A program made the position numbers and the translations under genes. The notes below the pieces were generated by a model, which was given only the letters and a program-made list of their open reading frames with translations, ran no database searches and was not told the DNA's origin. Source: Rhizobium rhododendri (lineage in GTDB: Bacteria > Pseudomonadota > Alphaproteobacteria > Rhizobiales > Rhizobiaceae). From it: DNA of 64,000 bases. The stretch is taken from NCBI RefSeq assembly GCF_007000325.2, contig NZ_CP117268.1:1054001-1118000 (forward strand), in the 5' to 3' direction. Of the stretch, positions 53,682 through 61,587 are shown piece after piece (position 1 is the first letter of the stretch; each line of letters begins with the position of its first letter).

Positions 53682-56600
53682 TCATTTGCCTTCCATGCGG
53701 GCTTTGGGGATTTGGCTCGGCTGAGGATCGGGCTCGGCATGGACCGGGCCATGCGGAATTCGAAAGGGGCGTACAAAAATGTCCCGCGGTTTGGGTGGCG
53801 GTGCCCGATCGCGTGAATCTCCACCGCCAGCAGAACCATGGCCAAACTCGTCTCCACGACCCGCCGGCAATTTGAACTCGATCTCCCGGTCTGCAAGGCC
53901 GGAAAGATCCCCCGTCAGGTCGAACAATTGCTGGGCAACCAGATGGACGACATCGCCTTCCCGCTGGATTCGCCCGTTGATCGCCATCATCGAGGCTCCC
54001 AGCACCACCCGACGCCGCTTTTCGAACAGCTTCGGCCAGACGACGATGTTGGCGGGACCGGTCTCGTCCTCGATCGTGATGAACATCACGCCTTTGGCCG
54101 AGCCCGGTTTTTGCCGCACCAGCACCAGGCCCGCCGTCATGACCCATCGTCCGTCCCGGGCGGTCATGGCCTCCTCGCAGGTCACGATGCTGCGCTTTGC
54201 CAGATCGTTTCTGAGAAAGGCGATTGGGTGGTCGCGAAGCGTGAGCCCGGTATGGCCATAGTCCTCCACCACGTTATGGCCTTCGGTCATCTGCCTGAGC
54301 GCGACCTCAGGCTCGCGCTGCTCAGCGATGGCCTGCATGTCGCGTGCAGCGGCAGCGGCAAACAAGGGTAGCGGCTCGTCGCGCAGCGCCTTTATCGCCC
54401 AGAGCGCATCGCGTCTCTCGAGCTTCAGGGCCGGCCGGAACGCATCGGCCTGCGCAAGCTCGACCAGCGAGGCGGCGGGCACGCCAGACCGGCGCCACAG
54501 GTCATCGACGGAACCAAACTCTGCGTTCATGCGCGCGGCAACGATCCGGGCGGCGTCGGCGACAGCCAGGCCTCTCACGATCCGCATGCCCAGCCGGACA
54601 GCATGGCGACACGTATCGCCAATCCGTTCCAGCGTGCAGTCCCAGCGCGACTGGTTGATGCAGACGGGGCGGATCTCGACGCCATGGGCACGCGCACAGC
54701 CGACGATCTGGGCGGGCGCATAAAAGCCCATGGGCTGACTGTTCAAAAGGGCCGCGCAAAAAACGTCCGGGAAGTGGCACTTCACAAAATTGGACGCATA
54801 GGCGATCAGCGCGAAGGAAGCCGCATGCGATTCCGGAAAGCCATAGGATCCGAACCCCTCGAGCTGGCTGAAGGTCTTTTCGGCGAACGCGGCGGTGTAG
54901 CCGTTTCGCACCATGCCCGAGACCAGTTTGTCCTTGAACCTCGACACGCCCCCGGTGAACTTGAAGGTCGCCATGCTCTTGCGCAATTGGTCGGCCTCCC
55001 CGCCGGTAAACCCGGCACAGACCATCGCGACCCGCATCGCCGATTCTTGAAACAGCGGCACGCCCAGCGTTTTGCCGAGCACGGCTTCCAGTTCCGGGGT
55101 GGGATATTCGACCTTTTCCTTGCCTTCGCGACGGCGCAGATAGGGATGGACCATATCGCCCTGGATCGGCCCCGGGCGCACGATGGCAACCTGGACGACC
55201 AAATCGTAAAATGTCCTCGGCTTCAGACGCGGCAGCATCGCCATCTGGGCCCTGGACTCAATCTGAAACGTCCCGAGCGTGTCGGCCTTGCGGATCATCG
55301 CATAGGTCGCCGGATCCTCCTGGCGGATCGTCGACAGATCCAGGTCTTCGTCCTTGTGCTCGCGGATGAGATCGAAGGCCTTGCTCATGCAGGTCAGCAT
55401 GCCGAGCGCCAGGACGTCGACCTTCATCATCTTCAAGGCTTCAACATCGTCCTTGTCCCATTCGATGATCTGCCGGTCTTTCATGCTGGCCGGCTCGATG
55501 GGGACGAGATCGTCGAGGCGGTCACGCGTCAGCACGAAGCCGCCGGGATGCTGTCCGAGGTGGCGGGGCGCTCCCATCAACTGCTGAGCCAGCTGCAGGG
55601 TCAGCACCAGCCGGCGATCGTCTGGATTGAGATTGAGCTCTTTCACGTTTCGGGCGCTCACCTCTTGCGACCACGACCACATGCCGGACGACAGCGCCTT
55701 GATCAGATCTTCCGGCAGGCCCAGCGCCTTGCCGACATCGCGGATCGCCCCCTTGGCGCGGTAGCGTGTCACGGTCGCGCAAAGGGCCGCCTTCTCCCGG
55801 CCATAGGTCCTGTAAATCCACTGGATGACCTCCTCGCGCCGCTCGTGCTCGAAATCGACATCGATGTCCGGCGGTTCGTCCCGCTCCTGGCTGACGAAGC
55901 GCTCAAACAGCAGATCGTTGGTTTCGGGATCGATGGAGGTGACGCCAAGAATGTAGCAGACGGCCGAATTTGCAGCCGAGCCGCGCCCCTGACAAAGGAT
56001 GCCCTGGCTTCGTGCAAACCGCACGATCGAGAAGACCGTCAGGAAATACGGCGCGTATTCCATCGTCCGGATAAGATCGAGCTCATGGCGGACGATCTGC
56101 AGCGTCTTTGGCGGCAGGCCTTCCGGATAGCGATCCGGCACGCATTGCCAGACATAGTGCTCGAGGGATAGCTGCGCCGACTTTCCAGGAACGATGGCCT
56201 CCAGCGGATACTGGTAGGTCAGTTCCTCCAGCGAAAATCGACAGCGCTCGACGATCTCCATGGTTCGCCGCAGCGCTTGCGGGTAGCGCGGGAACAGACG
56301 CGCCATCTCTTCCGGCGGCTTGAGGAACCTGTCGGCATGACGCTCCCGCTCGAACCCGACCGCGTCGATGGTGGTGTTGTTGCGGATGCAGGTAACGATA
56401 TCCTGCAGTTGCCGCCTGCCCGGCTCGTGGAACAGCACGTCATTGGTAACGACGGTCTTGACCTTGAAGCGTTCGGCCATGTTGGACAGCTCATGCAGGC
56501 GAAGCTGGTCGTTGGGGCGGCGCCTCAGCGACAGGGAGAGGTAAGCGCCATCCCCAAAGACGTCGCCCATCTTGCGCAGCTGGACGGCGCACGTCTCGTC

Positions 56601-56981
56601 GGCAAGGTCCGGGACCAGGATACCGAGCAGGCCATCGGCATACATCGCGACGTCGTCCAGATGCAGAACGCAGTTGTTCTTTCCGCCCCTTGCCTTTCCC
56701 AGGGTGATGAGCCGCGTCAGCCGGGCATAGGCGGCGCGGTCGGTCGGATAGACGAGGATCGACATGCCGTCCGCCAGATCGAGGCGACATCCGACCACCA
56801 GCCGCACGCCTGTTTCGCGCGAGGCTATGAGCGCACGGACGATGCCGGCAAGCGAGTTGCGATCGACGACCCCGATCGCATCGATGCCCAGGTCCTTGGC
56901 GGTCGCAAACAACTCGTGGGCGGAACTTGCGCCCCTTAGAAAACTGAAATGCGTGGTCACCTGCAGCTCGGCATATCTCAT
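53682..56981 (-). CDS. dnaE2: Error-prone DNA polymerase DnaE2
   Basis: 1099 aa C-family polymerase used for damage-induced mutagenesis together with ImuA and ImuB. The start [20 protein letters not shown] is fixed by the ATGA overlap with imuB. An N-terminal PHP domain (to about 270) is followed by the polymerase palm: [18 protein letters not shown] near 330, [20 protein letters not shown] near 375 with the catalytic Asp pair, and [17 protein letters not shown] near 560. A helix-hairpin-helix region and an OB fold ([25 protein letters not shown] near 1000) end the protein. No beta-clamp motif was searched for. Last gene of the SOS-controlled operon. Confidence 0.97.
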
Positions 56982-58492
56982 GCGAAAATTCCGTGGACAT
57001 ACCATGCGTGGGATCCGGTCCCGCCATCGACACCGTCGCCGGAGCGGAAAATCCAGAGACGCTCGCCTGCCTCGTCCTCGACGGTGAAGTAGTCGCGAAC
57101 CGCCGCCCATTCGGACGTGTGCTGCCACCATTCGCCGAAGATGCGCTCGGGCCCGTCGGCGCGTTTGACCCGCCGGCGCTTGCCCCGCCACGTCACCGAT
57201 ACCGGCGGATGGTCGGGCAGCAGCGCGATCACCTCGACCTCTTCCGGATGGGCAAGCAAGCGGACCGGACGCGGCCACTGATGCGACCAGAAGACGTCGA
57301 TATCGTCAGCGGTCGCAGCAATACGCCGGACGCTGCGCTCCGGGACGTCGGATGCGACCGGTGCCAGACGGTAGACCCGCTGGCCGCGATTGCCGAAGAT
57401 GTCCACAAGCGGCGTGATATCGCCGTCACCGTCCTCGACAAACGACGATGCCGTCTGGGTCTCCTCGAGCGGCTGCGACAGGACGGCGACCAGGGTCAGC
57501 CTCTCGATGCCGAAACCGGGATCGATCCTTTCGGTGCGGTCCTTGAACAGCTTGGTGAGCCACGCCACGTCCCTTGCGGGCTTTGCCGTTCCGGCACGAA
57601 TGGCCTGGCGGGCATTGTCGACCGTGTCGACGATCAGGTCCGCGCGCCGGACCCCCAGCCCTTGTCTTTGAAGTTCGCCGCAGAGCTCGACGACCAGGCG
57701 CCCGACATATTTGTCGATCGTCTCTGCCGCACCGATCGGGTCCTGGAAAGAGCGAGCGACCGCAATCTGCCCAGGGCTCCTGATGGGCTCGATCGGCTCG
57801 CGGACACGACCGAACATCTGGTCAAGGCGTCGCCCGATCTCGGGCCCGAAGCGAAGCGTCAGCGGCGCGCGCGGCGTCACGGAGAGCTCCCCGATCGTGC
57901 GAAAGCCGAGGGTCCTGAGATCCCCGACGATCTTGTCCGGGAGCCGCAACAGGCAGACGGGCAAGCGCTCGACGGCGCGCAGGGTCTCGCCTCTGGGTAT
58001 GATGACCGTCTCCCTTTTTATCGCCCGTGCGCAGGCGTGCGCGGCACCCCATGTGTCGGCAATGGCGACACGCGTCGTCAGACCCCTGGCGGCGAACCGA
58101 TTGGCGATGCCCGTCAGCATCGCACGCTCCCCACCCTTCAGATGGTCGGCACCCTCCGTGTCCATGACGATGCCGTTTTCGGCATCGACGGCGACGATGG
58201 GCGAATATTGGGTCAATGCCCACAACGCGATCCGCTCCAGAGCCGCAGCGTCGGCCCGCGGGTCGGCCTCGATCGTCAGCAATCCCTGGAACAGGGCCTG
58301 GGCCTTTGCGGCCGCCATGCCGACGCGCACGCCTGCCCGTCTTGCCGGATCGTCGGCGGCCGACACCCAGCGTTTCGATCCGCTTTTTGCAATCACGGCA
58401 ATGGCCTGGTCAACCGGAATGGCGGGATCGGCCGCGCGACGAATGCGATCCGTCGACAGATCCGGAAGGTAGATCGATACGACCCTGGTCAT
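56978..58492 (-). CDS. imuB: ImuB, Y-family polymerase-like mutagenesis protein
   Basis: 504 aa from ATG 58492 ([19 protein letters not shown]). The fold is that of Y-family polymerases but catalytic acids are missing: the DxD that reads HVDMDAF in DinB is SIYLPDL here. ImuB is thus a clamp-binding adaptor that brings DnaE2 to stalled forks. Other segments are [16 protein letters not shown] near 165, [12 protein letters not shown] near 205 and [15 protein letters not shown] near 228. It overlaps imuA by 83 bases and dnaE2 by four, so all three are translated together. Confidence 0.95.
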
Positions 58493-59165
58493 CACACGCT
58501 CCAACGACAAATTCGGCACAGGCGCCGGCCCGCGATCGCATCAGCTCCAGCAACCAGGTTGCCCGCCCGACGCCGGGTACAGGCATTGAAACCGACGGCA
58601 GCACGCTGACGCGCCATCGCGTGGTCGAGGCGGTCGGCTGGCCAAAGTCGTTGGCTTCCGTCTGCCGGCGCCACCTGCGAACGACGAGTGCCAAGGTCCC
58701 CTTCTGTTCGGCGGCCAGCTGCAGGCGCCTGCTTTCCAGCATCGGCAGTCGGACGAGCTCCCCCACGACCGCGCCGAGGCCGCCATAGGACAAGGCCTCC
58801 TCCATGGACGCAAGCACATCCTCTTGCCGATCACCCTCGACAAAGATGACCCGGTTTGCATTGAGGCCCACTTGGGCCAGCGCCGGGAAGAACAGGTCTG
58901 GACGCGTCAGACACCAGACGATCTTGCCTTTGGTGCGCGCCGCAATCCCGGCAACGAACAGGGCGGCGGCGGCACCATCGACGACGCCGGCCCCACCGCC
59001 TGCGAACTCATGAAGAGCCCCGCGCGCAAGACCGCCTCCCGGCAGCACGGCATCGATCTCGCCAACACCGAAGGGCAGGCTTTCCATTGGCGTCGCAGGG
59101 CCACGCGCAAGGGCGGAGATGCGGCGGCGCAGATCGGCTATGACGTGCTCGCGTGCAGCCGTCAT
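58410..59165 (-). CDS. imuA: ImuA, RecA-like mutagenesis accessory protein
   Basis: 251 aa, related to RecA/SulA-like proteins; promotes DnaE2-ImuB mutagenesis, in part by interacting with RecA. The start HVIADLRRRISALARG and LPFGVGEIDAVLPGGGLARGALHEF near 30-55 are typical; the Walker A position lacks the GKT sequence. C-terminal residues 195-250 hold RATWLLELMRSRAGACAEFVVGAC and a Ser/Arg-rich tail overlapping imuB. An SOS box lies 65 bases upstream of its start. Confidence 0.93.
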   Translation of the reverse strand: MTAAREHVIADLRRRISALARGPATPMESLPFGVGEIDAVLPGGGLARGALHEFAGGGAGVVDGAAAALFVAGIAARTKGKIVWCLTRPDLFFPALAQVGLNANRVIFVEGDRQEDVLASMEEALSYGGLGAVVGELVRLPMLESRRLQLAAEQKGTLALVVRRWRRQTEANDFGQPTASTTRWRVSVLPSVSMPVPGVGRATWLLELMRSRAGACAEFVVGACDDQGRIDLPSGSVDGSHSSRGRSRHSG

Positions 59166-59525
59166 CGTTCACGCAATCCTCTCGGTTCGTGGGTCATCAG
59201 AACGACGTCATGCCGTTTTATCGATTGAAGTTCACGTTCTGTTCCGGCGAACGGCGAGAGTCAAGCCGGTACAAAATAGGAATATCCTCCTCCAATTTTA
59301 GCAAAGGAGAAGATTCTTGAGCCAAATCAGCGCCGTACCCCCGTTTGCGCCGTGTTTGGCCTCAGGAAAAAAAACGGTGGGTGCGTGCCTGGACGAAACG
59401 CCGGGCGCGGCCTGTCGCGGCATGGATGCGACCGGGAGGCGGTTGATCTTTCGGGGGAAAGGCTCGATGTGGCCCGCTCCCCATTCGAAGAGCCACTCGC
59501 CACGGTCATGCAAAGGCTTGGGCGC
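59166..59525. other. Intergenic region with SOS box and an unresolved plus-strand start
   Basis: Holds the imuA SOS box (59230-59244). On the plus strand AAAGGAGA at 59304-59311 precedes a TTG at 59317 that opens a 145-codon frame (ISAVPPFAPCLASGKKT, RLIFRGKGSMWPAPHSK). The frame runs into the antisense of the gene at 59526 and has no recognised domain, so I do not call a gene. Confidence 0.35.
59230..59244 (-). promoter_or_regulatory. Alphaproteobacterial LexA (SOS) box of imuA-imuB-dnaE2
   Basis: GTTCACGTTCTGTTC on the plus strand fits the direct-repeat box GTTC-N7-GTTC (GAAC-N7-GAAC on the coding strand) of alphaproteobacteria. It ends 65 bases before the imuA start codon. LexA repression of this operon is well established in the group. 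Confidence 0.85.
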
Positions 59526-59834
59526 CTATTGGCCCGAGACGCGAATGGCACCCGCCTCGCCCAGACTGCGCTGGACAACCGCAACTTGGCTGGAGGCGAT
59601 ATTGGCGGACACCTCGATTTCGCCGCCAAGCGGCGCATCGTCTCGCGCGCCCTCATTGTGTGAAAGGTCTCCGCCCGATGGCGACGTGCCGACGGTGTTT
59701 TCATTGGTGGTCGATTGGATGAAGATGTCAGGCCTTGCGATGCCGTGCTGCTGAACCAAATGCTCGACTGCAAGATCGGCTGCGGCCCGGGTCGCGAAGG
59801 TGGCTCGGATCTTCAGGGTGCTGTCGTCGGCCAT
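59526..59834 (-). CDS. Small hypothetical protein
   Basis: 102 aa from ATG 59834, preceded by AGGAGATAG. The first half (STLKIRATFATRAAADLAVEHLVQQHGI) predicts a ferredoxin-like beta-alpha-beta fold; the second half is acidic and Gly/Ser-rich (GTSPSGGDLSHNEGARDDAPLGG), ending in VSANIASSQVAVVQRSLGEAGA. No known domain. It lies between two damage-response genes, but no SOS box precedes it. Confidence 0.7.
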   Translation of the reverse strand: MADDSTLKIRATFATRAAADLAVEHLVQQHGIARPDIFIQSTTNENTVGTSPSGGDLSHNEGARDDAPLGGEIEVSANIASSQVAVVQRSLGEAGAIRVSGQ

Positions 59835-59948
59835 GCGGCTATCTCCTGTTGCTGATGTCACCTGGCTCAACGTCCCTTAGGCCCACAGGTTGCCTCAAGC
59901 GGGCAAGTCACCGTCAATCGCCTTGGATATCGGTCGAAACGCTGCTAT

Positions 59949-59963
59949 GTTCTCTTTTTGTTT
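59949..59963 (+). promoter_or_regulatory. Degenerate SOS box candidate before dinB
   Basis: GTTCTCTTTTTGTTT fits GTTC-N7-GTTC except for the last base (T for C), 30 bases before the dinB ATG at 59979. Plausible because dinB is often LexA-controlled, but the mismatch lowers confidence. Confidence 0.35.
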
Positions 59964-59978
59964 CGCCGACAATCCCAG

Positions 59979-61076
59979 ATGGCCGCCATGAACGACGTGA
60001 CGTTACCCCCAACCCGCAAAATCATTCATGTCGACATGGATGCCTTCTATGCCTCGGTCGAGCAGCGCGACAATCCCGACCTGCGCGGACGGCCGCTGGC
60101 CGTTGGCGGATCGGCGGCCCGGGGTGTCGTGGCGGCGGCAAGTTACGAAGCGCGAACCTTCGGTGTCCACTCGGCCATGCCGTCGGTGACCGCCAAGCGG
60201 AAATGTCCACAGCTGATCTTCGTGCCGCCGCGCTTCGACGTCTATCGGCAGGTATCGCAGCAAATCCGGGACATCTTTGCTGAGTACACACCCCTCATCG
60301 AGCCCCTGTCGCTCGACGAGGCCTATCTCGACGTGACCGAAAACCTGAAAGACATGGAGATTGCCACCGAGATTGCGCTGGAGATCCGCGCGAAGATCAA
60401 GGCTGTCACCGGCCTCAATGCATCCGCCGGCATCTCCTACAACAAGTTTCTGGCCAAGATGGCAAGCGACCTCAACAAGCCGAATGGCCAGGCGGTGATC
60501 ACGCCGAAGAATGGCCCAGGCTTTGTAGAAACCCTCCCCGTCAAGAAATTCCATGGTGTCGGGCCTGCGACGGCCGAGCGCATGAAACGGCACGGCATCG
60601 AGACCGGCCTCGACCTCAAATCGAAGTCGCTTGCCTTCCTCCAGCAGACTTTCGGCAAGTCCGGACCCTATTTCTACGGGATTGCCCGCGGCATCGACGA
60701 ACGCCGGGTCAGGCCCGACCGGATCCGGAAATCCGTTGGCGCCGAGGATACGTTCGCCGAGGACATCGACGATCTCGATCTGGCCAAGGCCGAGCTCAGG
60801 CCGTTGGCCGAAAAGGTCTGGCGCTCTTGCGAGGCCAACGACATCACGGGAAAGACGGTGACTGTCAAAATCAAATATTCGGATTTCAGCCAGGCGACCC
60901 GCAGCAAAACCCTGTCCGGGCCTGTCTCGGATATCGACATGGTGCTGGAGGCCGCAGAAATCCTGCTTGCCTCGGTGTTCCCGTTCAAACGTCCGGTGCG
61001 ACTGCTGGGCGTGACCCTCTCATCGCTGAATACGGAAGACCACCTGGCAGAACCGCAACTCGCTCTAGGCCTCTGA
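59979..61076 (+). CDS. dinB: DNA polymerase IV (DinB)
   Basis: 365 aa Y-family translesion polymerase. The catalytic carboxylates are all present: HVDMDAFYASVEQRDNP near 20 and LSLDEAYLDVTEN near 115. A DNA-binding helix-hairpin-helix (KKFHGVGPATAERMKRHGI) is near 190 and the little-finger domain follows. The start is ATG 59979 or 59988 (MNDVTLPPTRK); neither has a strong ribosome-binding site. The C-terminus lacks an obvious QL-x-LF clamp motif. Transcribed divergently from the gene at 59526 and followed by the bidirectional terminator hairpin at 61100. Confidence 0.95.
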   Translation: MAAMNDVTLPPTRKIIHVDMDAFYASVEQRDNPDLRGRPLAVGGSAARGVVAAASYEARTFGVHSAMPSVTAKRKCPQLIFVPPRFDVYRQVSQQIRDIFAEYTPLIEPLSLDEAYLDVTENLKDMEIATEIALEIRAKIKAVTGLNASAGISYNKFLAKMASDLNKPNGQAVITPKNGPGFVETLPVKKFHGVGPATAERMKRHGIETGLDLKSKSLAFLQQTFGKSGPYFYGIARGIDERRVRPDRIRKSVGAEDTFAEDIDDLDLAKAELRPLAEKVWRSCEANDITGKTVTVKIKYSDFSQATRSKTLSGPVSDIDMVLEAAEILLASVFPFKRPVRLLGVTLSSLNTEDHLAEPQLALGL

Positions 61077-61094
61077 CGCGTTGGTCCCAAAACG

Positions 61095-61275
61095 AAAAAG
61101 CCTGCCGCGGGAGGAGGTGCGGCAGGCTTTTCGAAAAGAACCGAACAGCGGCCTAGGAGGAGGAGCGCCGCTATTCCGACAGGCGTCCCCGGGAGGAGGA
61201 GTGGGCCGCCTGAATTCGAAGCTCTGCGGGAGGAGGTGCATCGCTTCGATGACCAGAAGATAGCCGATCTTCCCG
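61095..61275 (-). ncRNA. Probable small RNA with four anti-Shine-Dalgarno hairpins
   Basis: On the minus strand four hairpins follow each other, each with a CCTCCTCC-type loop complementary to the Shine-Dalgarno sequence: 61249-61216 (stem TCGAAGC/GCTTCGA), 61210-61182 (stem GGCG/CGCC), 61172-61147 (stem AGCGGC/GCCGCT) and 61127-61100 (stem GCCTGCCGC/GCGGCAGGC). The last ends in TTTTTCGTTTT and is a Rho-independent terminator. Repeated CUCCUCCC loops are the hallmark of the alphaproteobacterial 'cuckoo' sRNAs (also alpha-r14/NfeR1 of Sinorhizobium, CcsR of Rhodobacter). The region 61250-61330 should hold the promoter; the 5' end is an estimate. Family membership is from remembered motif, not a covariance search. 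Confidence 0.7.
61100..61137. terminator. Bidirectional Rho-independent terminator, also last hairpin of the sRNA
   Basis: GCCTGCCGC (61100-61108) pairs with GCGGCAGGC (61119-61127), a nine-base-pair stem with a ten-base loop GGGAGGAGGT on the plus strand. The minus strand continues with TTTTTCG and TTTT; the plus strand with TTTTC. It would end the minus-strand sRNA strongly and dinB transcription weakly. Confidence 0.8.
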
Positions 61276-61587
61276 CACATTAAATAGACTTTGTTGCAGC
61301 GCAGCCATGCGAAAAGTGACGAGCTCGTTTGGGGAGGGAAAATTGTCTCGCCGCCCTGATCGAAGCCGGTCCGGAAATTCGATCTCAGCGCGAAGGCAGG
61401 ACCTGACAAGGCATAGCGCGGTTCTTGGTTCAAAGCGCCACAATGGCTTATCTCCTCCACCCGGCTCTTTTTAAGGGTTGAACGGTCCTTGAGTCTAAAA
61501 AGGGTGACCGGAGATTTGTGATTCGATAGAAGTCGCTTGCAAACCGGTCTCGGAAATTACAAAGGATCGAGTGGAACAGATAGGTGT
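61250..61587. other. Region between sRNA and rfbC, no protein gene seen
   Basis: Contains the expected minus-strand sRNA promoter (an AT-rich patch TCTATTTAAT at about 61282-61291 read on the minus strand) and the plus-strand promoter of rfbC. No convincing reading frame. Confidence 0.4.

Follow-up and report, generated by a model that had tools for sequence, protein, structure and literature searches.

The 64,000-nt stretch of Rhizobium rhododendri contig NZ_CP117268.1 analyzed here (positions 1,054,001 to 1,118,000; hereafter the window) carries on its plus strand, at 59958..61076, a gene for a dinB-type Y-family DNA polymerase (Pfam IMS and IMS_C) that converges with four hairpins arranged in a row on the minus strand (61249-61093), each of which holds the core CCTCCTCC in its loop. 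Only 16 bases separate the dinB stop codon from the last of these hairpins. Adjoining dinB are three minus-strand open reading frames that we take, from their protein sequences, to encode a dnaE2-like polymerase (53682-57278), an imuB-like protein (56978-58519) and an imuA-like protein (58410-59165), the last of which returned no Pfam match. Genes for SOS-type mutagenesis thus seem to be clustered at window positions 53682-61076.

In the direction of the minus strand, the array comprises hairpin 1 (61216..61249, loop core 61236-61229), hairpin 2 (61180..61212, loop core 61199-61192), hairpin 3 (61143..61176, loop core 61163-61156) and hairpin 4 with its U run (61093..61133, loop core 61117-61110), so that four CCTCCTCC cores, all on the same strand, fall within 127 nt (61110-61236). 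Over both strands of the 64-kb window this core occurs seven times, against 2.10 expected and a maximum of six in 100 shuffles. Loops 1, 2 and 4 read CCUCCUCCC, and loop 3 reads CCUCCUCCU, ending in U. Carrying over the ends of the listed 160-nt S. meliloti SmelA099 transcript yields a predicted mature sRNA of the same length on the minus strand (61092..61251), whose fold consists of four hairpins that each leave the motif unpaired in the loop (-72.1 kcal/mol; z -4.92; none of 200 shuffles equally stable). Hairpin 4 consists of a G+C-rich 15-pair stem with one bulge, the inner nine pairs being GCCTGCCGC/GCGGCAGGC, followed by UUUUU, and is a probable intrinsic terminator; a simple terminator scan reported no site at the array because it allows loops of up to 8 bases and that of hairpin 4 has 10. 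With the loop cores located and the fold well below its shuffles, the four consecutive minus-strand hairpins with anti-Shine-Dalgarno loops proposed in the original prediction are real. Their proposed extent of 61095..61275 stands for the hairpins, which lie at 61249-61093, but not for 61252-61275, a segment upstream of the likely start that holds the probable -10 element.

A covariance search with Rfam models bears out the assignment of the array to the ar14/cuckoo family. The ar14 model (RF02344) matched the minus strand at 61093..61218 over its whole length (model positions 1-123 of 123) with 100.1 bits, well above the gathering score of 58.8, and the match spans hairpins 2-4, leaving hairpin 1 outside the model. 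The four hairpins do exceed the three of the Rfam model, as had been suspected, and since the model fits hairpins 2-4 of a four-hairpin RNA, we filed the locus as a four-hairpin subtype instead of a standard ar14 RNA, for which three hairpins are the rule. All other candidate families fell short of their Rfam cut-offs and were rejected: ar7 (37.6 bits against 60), CcsR1 (RF02791; 28.4 against a gathering score of 65.3), mraW (26.6 against 50), RNAI (23.5 against 47), sX13 (20 against 50) and anti-hemB (18.1 against 49.5).

Four ar14 loci score above the cut-off in the R. rhododendri genome: the window locus and L002, with four loops each, and L001 and L003, with three (the third loop of L003 having one mismatch). 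The paralog L002 (C1:3421656) is identical to the window RNA at 138 of 170 positions overall, differing at one of 34 bases in hairpin 1, solely in the outer A run in hairpin 4, and possessing other stems in hairpins 2 and 3. The same genome also contains, in locus L005 (C1:1630546 on), three hairpins (locus positions 1501-1615) with degenerate C-rich loops that score 57.1 bits against ar14, just below the 58.8 cut-off, with a fold z-score of -9.67 for positions 1500-1620. They lie about 300 bases upstream of a gene for a 48-aa DUF1127 protein (locus positions 1921-2067). This arrangement resembles that of Rhodobacter sphaeroides, where CcsR RNAs are co-transcribed with a DUF1127 gene, with the difference that in L005 the RNA precedes the gene. 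The R. sphaeroides RNAs CcsR1-4 (RF02791), presumably the same as the RSs0680 RNAs, also carry the CCUCCUCCC motif in their loops according to the model consensus, but the CcsR1 model has two hairpins where the window RNA has four.

The form with four hairpins had been put forward as possibly new. It is not: Reinkensmeier et al. 2011 (PMC3927594) report rhizobial RNAs whose loops carry CCUCCUCCC in two forms, SmelA075 with three hairpins and SmelA099 with four, and the 'cuckoo' motif is given elsewhere as comprising two to four hairpins (PMC4504443); with the four-hairpin form already in print, the suggested novelty falls. SmelA099 is listed in a 2010 deep-sequencing survey (PMC2873474) as a 160-nt RNA at positions 1328175-1328334 of S. 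meliloti pSymA, minus strand. As listed, that RNA runs from the base of hairpin 1 to just past hairpin 4, and all four hairpins therefore belong to one transcript. We extracted pSymA 1328166-1328337 (L119) and aligned it with the window locus. The two show the same loop spacing (37, 36 and 46) and are identical at 139 of 171 aligned positions (81%); hairpin 1 is identical over 34 bases, hairpin 4 differs at one of 41, the stems of hairpins 2 and 3 differ, and the third loop of the window RNA ends in U. This alignment establishes the homology to S. meliloti SmelA099 on which the RFMSmelA099 family is defined, and the four hairpins with similar CCUCCUCCC loops (loop 3 deviating here as noted) agree with that family as published. 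The window RNA likewise conforms to the published cuckoo definition in hairpin number and loop, with stems that, within this lineage, are variable in hairpins 2 and 3 and almost constant in hairpins 1 and 4. In short, the locus adds a further member, of the SmelA099 subtype, to a family of four-hairpin anti-Shine-Dalgarno sRNAs already described, although SmelA099 (smrA6) is listed as a transcript and the window RNA is known here from sequence. Names for SmelA099-related sRNAs occur in PMC7143759, PMC3927594 and PMC2873474, and in what we consulted of the literature on SmelA099, smrA6, SMa6570 and Smr14A1 we came across no work on the function of an RNA with four hairpins.

A studied relative does exist in the ar14 family. 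As described, NfeR1 (Smr14C2) shares the loop motif and a similar upstream box with the window RNA; it has three hairpins, to which the window RNA adds one at the 5' end, and the terminator stems of the two differ. The promoter region of the window locus was read against the transferred transcript start. A probable -10 element, CTATCT, lies at 61258..61263 (minus strand) as positioned from that start, and several dinB-linked relatives have GTATCT or GTACCT aligned at the -10 position; a simple scan of the locus for a sigma-70 consensus promoter returned none. Further upstream, the conserved box GCATGGCTGCGCTGC (61296..61310, minus strand) follows the shared pattern GCATNNCTG-N2-3-TGC, which recurs at almost the same distance in 48 of the 54 distinct upstream regions of four-hairpin loci. 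It is also present in 28 of 34 distinct three-hairpin upstream regions, with the four-hairpin locus L034 left out, or in 28 of 33 if L031, which has an extra loop-like match 139 bases on, is also dropped. In 100 shuffles of each set the count never exceeds 1, the sets being taken as first composed, with L034 among the three-hairpin regions. Six four-hairpin regions (L123, L139, L145, L160, L167 and L168) have no box as defined, and that of L145 contains nothing box-like by eye. In the NfeR1 promoter, a TGCA-N6-GCAT sequence is reported as an LsrB-type box (PMC10746234). The upstream box of the window is similar to it, and LsrB may bind there.

To characterize selection on the array, 69 loci were put through one extraction, giving 59 RNAs, of which 55 are distinct (those of the window and L002 included); these were aligned and a consensus was obtained with RNAalifold. 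All 37 loci chosen for four exact loops (L120-L128, L130-L157) passed the extraction rule. The ten that yielded no RNA were L129 (three loops), L159 (shortened hairpin 4 loop), L177 (contig end) and seven three-hairpin loci (L171-L176 and L179). Standard pairs occupy 98.4% of the pair cells of the four-hairpin consensus. Changes on both sides of a pair were detected at 18 of 39 pairs, compared with a mean of 7.2 in shuffles (none of 500 as high) and 3-8 in slid controls, and they are distributed very unevenly, with 0 of 8 pairs in hairpin 1, 8 of 9 in hairpin 2, 8 of 10 in hairpin 3 and 2 of 12 in hairpin 4. Compensatory changes thus affect 16 of the 19 pairs of hairpins 2 and 3 taken together, and in hairpin 4 six of the 12 pairs never vary. 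Mean stem column entropy across hairpins 1 to 4 is 0.05, 0.63, 0.54 and 0.07 bits, figures obtained under an extraction rule by which hairpin 1 had to begin with CGAAG or TGAAG and hairpin 4 with GCCTG...GC, and which so favors conserved hairpins 1 and 4. Mean apical-loop column entropy is 0.08, 0.37, 0.14 and 0.04 bits.

The original prediction had stated that the stems differ completely while the loops are kept, and had read this as selection on the loops. As regards the stems, this is accurate when the four hairpins of a single RNA are compared and also, from homolog to homolog, for hairpins 2 and 3, but it does not apply to hairpins 1 and 4, whose stems scarcely change across the 55 distinct RNAs. 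As regards the loops, conservation among relatives supports the proposal without being absolute. All four hairpins keep CCTCCTCCC in 42 of the 55 distinct RNAs, and imperfect versions occur in hairpin 1 of eight, in hairpin 3 of three (the window RNA among them), in hairpin 4 of two and in hairpin 2 of none. The third loop is degenerate (CCUCCUCUU) in the dinB-linked close relatives L040 and L041 and deviates in the window RNA itself, indicating that not every loop is under strict selection.

Searches across genomes revealed a wide distribution of this kind of RNA. In a set of 61 genomes made up of R. rhododendri, 36 others of its genus and 24 of its order, ar14 matches at E <= 0.001 were found in 46 genomes and matches above the cut-off in 38; every one of the 37 genomes of the genus has an ar14 match, and every one also matches the pattern of three exact loops. 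Four-loop arrays, counted by eye from overlapping matches, number at least 39 in at least 25 of these 37 genomes, which means that the Rfam ar14 model omits hairpin 1 of a widespread subtype. Three or more exact loops are present in 43 of 61 genomes sampled across the family, most listed arrays having three by eye. For these loop-pattern scans the reversed-pattern control is uninformative, with identical counts, because CCTCCTCC reads the same backwards. Outside the genus, G246 and G278 contain four-hairpin arrays with the same type of hairpins 1 and 4, and G241 and G279 contain variants. The hairpin 1 sequence, searched with up to two mismatches, matched 12 of 199 genomes of the order, a weak test of its range since just seven of the 199 belong to the same family; three matches, all in the genus itself (G000, G017 and G029), are exact and the other nine have one or two mismatches. 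In a plasmid collection, 493 of 72,556 records gave a blastn match to the array region, including weaker matches that may be three-hairpin relatives, and in 64 of them one place covers at least 80% of the region. By the first word of the record name, 332 are Rhizobium, 85 Sinorhizobium and 41 Agrobacterium.

The fold, the match to the family, the compensatory changes, the conservation among relatives, the homology to SmelA099 and the common upstream box are the observations that support our reading of the locus, which we hold with considerable confidence: a trans-acting ar14/'cuckoo' sRNA of the four-hairpin SmelA099 subtype, whose anti-Shine-Dalgarno loops would block ribosome-binding sites. 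From these we infer its transcription in R. rhododendri, its regulator, its targets and the block to translation. The RNA would be made from its own promoter, with the LysR/LsrB-like box upstream, and would probably end at hairpin 4 after 160 nt. Every hairpin displays an anti-Shine-Dalgarno 8-9-mer in its loop, any of which could pair with a GGAGGAG-type ribosome-binding site and so prevent translation, possibly followed by decay of the mRNA. By analogy, the RNA most likely works as its relative NfeR1 does, through pairing of its loops with the ribosome-binding sites of mRNAs. For the three-hairpin NfeR1, a block to translation is in print: its induction is reported to lower expression of an ntrB::eGFP fusion, a version mutated in the three anti-Shine-Dalgarno motifs is reported not to, and the three motifs are called functionally redundant (PMC10746234). 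Additional loops may make pairing more likely or allow one RNA to engage several mRNAs. Within the R. rhododendri genome, GGAGGAG-N4-11-ATG sites number 141, against 29 for the reversed pattern, and GGGAGGAGG-N4-10-ATG sites five, against one. Any genome that uses Shine-Dalgarno sequences would be expected to have such a surplus of GGAGGAG before ATG; sites abound, and the surplus identifies no target.

The same loops could act less selectively. The sequence CACCUCCU, found in loops 1 and 4, is also that of the 3' tail of 16S rRNA, and each molecule offers four loops, features that would suit a soluble mimic of the 16S anti-Shine-Dalgarno tail titrating ribosomes or initiation globally and not acting on chosen mRNAs. 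We consider such global titration improbable. A weak counterpoint is the effect of NfeR1 on one target, which is described as seed-dependent and called modest (PMC10746234).

The position of the array points to another, still less probable role, in which it would act mainly in cis as a bidirectional terminator separating dinB from the opposite strand and would have little activity in trans. Hairpin 4, so close to the dinB stop, presents a G+C-rich stem with a T run after it whichever strand is read, and an array lies convergently downstream of dinB at six (L039, L040, L041, L042, L047 and L073) of 80 DinB loci among the matches listed, of 587 confirmed. No chain of exact loops was seen at the other 74, many of which are from distant organisms and two of which extend 105 (L052) and 212 (L072) bases beyond the DinB match. 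With the array seen at just six of the 80 loci listed, a cis role beside dinB was rejected. The same kind of RNA, moreover, occurs elsewhere, as in the paralog L002, which sits among other open reading frames, none of them dinB-like by eye, and in the 493 plasmid records that match the region. A terminator also needs neither four conserved loops nor compensatory changes in hairpins 2 and 3. That the hairpins are incidental to a minus-strand small protein has next to no chance of being correct, even though open frames of 131 and 90 aa span all or part of the array, because indels among homologs are not multiples of three (the extracted stretches are 167 to 175 long, and the distances between loops differ by single bases), and the changes in hairpins 2 and 3 preserve base pairs.

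Read as a trans-acting sRNA of the SmelA099 subtype, the locus is ordinary in all respects save the near-invariance of its hairpin 1 stem, for which nothing that we found accounts. The near-frozen stem of hairpin 4 can be explained by a function as terminator; that of hairpin 1 is nearly frozen although hairpin 1 is no terminator and the three-hairpin lineage does without it, and it does vary in a more distant genus (G241). It is conceivable, if rather unlikely, that the four-hairpin lineage is functionally distinct from NfeR1 and that hairpin 1 is more than a fourth seed. Were this so, hairpin 1 might be, for instance, a 5' element read by a protein or an RNase, or a part of promoter clearance, and it might govern how stable the RNA is or how it is processed, with the stems of hairpins 2 and 3 evolving freely. 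The alignment of 55 RNAs, with two covarying and two near-frozen stems, could serve to explore which roles hairpins 1 and 4 have beyond pairing.

The survey also brought to light variation in the number and arrangement of hairpins. Compared with L138 (G011:C148), L129 (G026:C4) is a derivative with three loops, the 5' arm of its hairpin 1 continuing at the loop into the 3' arm of hairpin 2; this looks like the loss of the stretch between two loop repeats, a possible way for hairpin number to change. Six anti-Shine-Dalgarno loops lie in a row in L199 (G244:C5:17950-18550), where two whole-model ar14 matches are 7 bases apart, and arrays starting 157-307 bases apart were found in ten further genomes (G240, G243, G247, G262, G267, G271, G276, G285, G288 and G290), so that tandem copies look common. 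Finally, the four-hairpin RNA extracted from L158, L169, L170 and L178 is identical in four genomes (G034, G017, G009 and G023), which may reflect recent transfer, and the loop of its hairpin 1 reads CTTCCTCCC.
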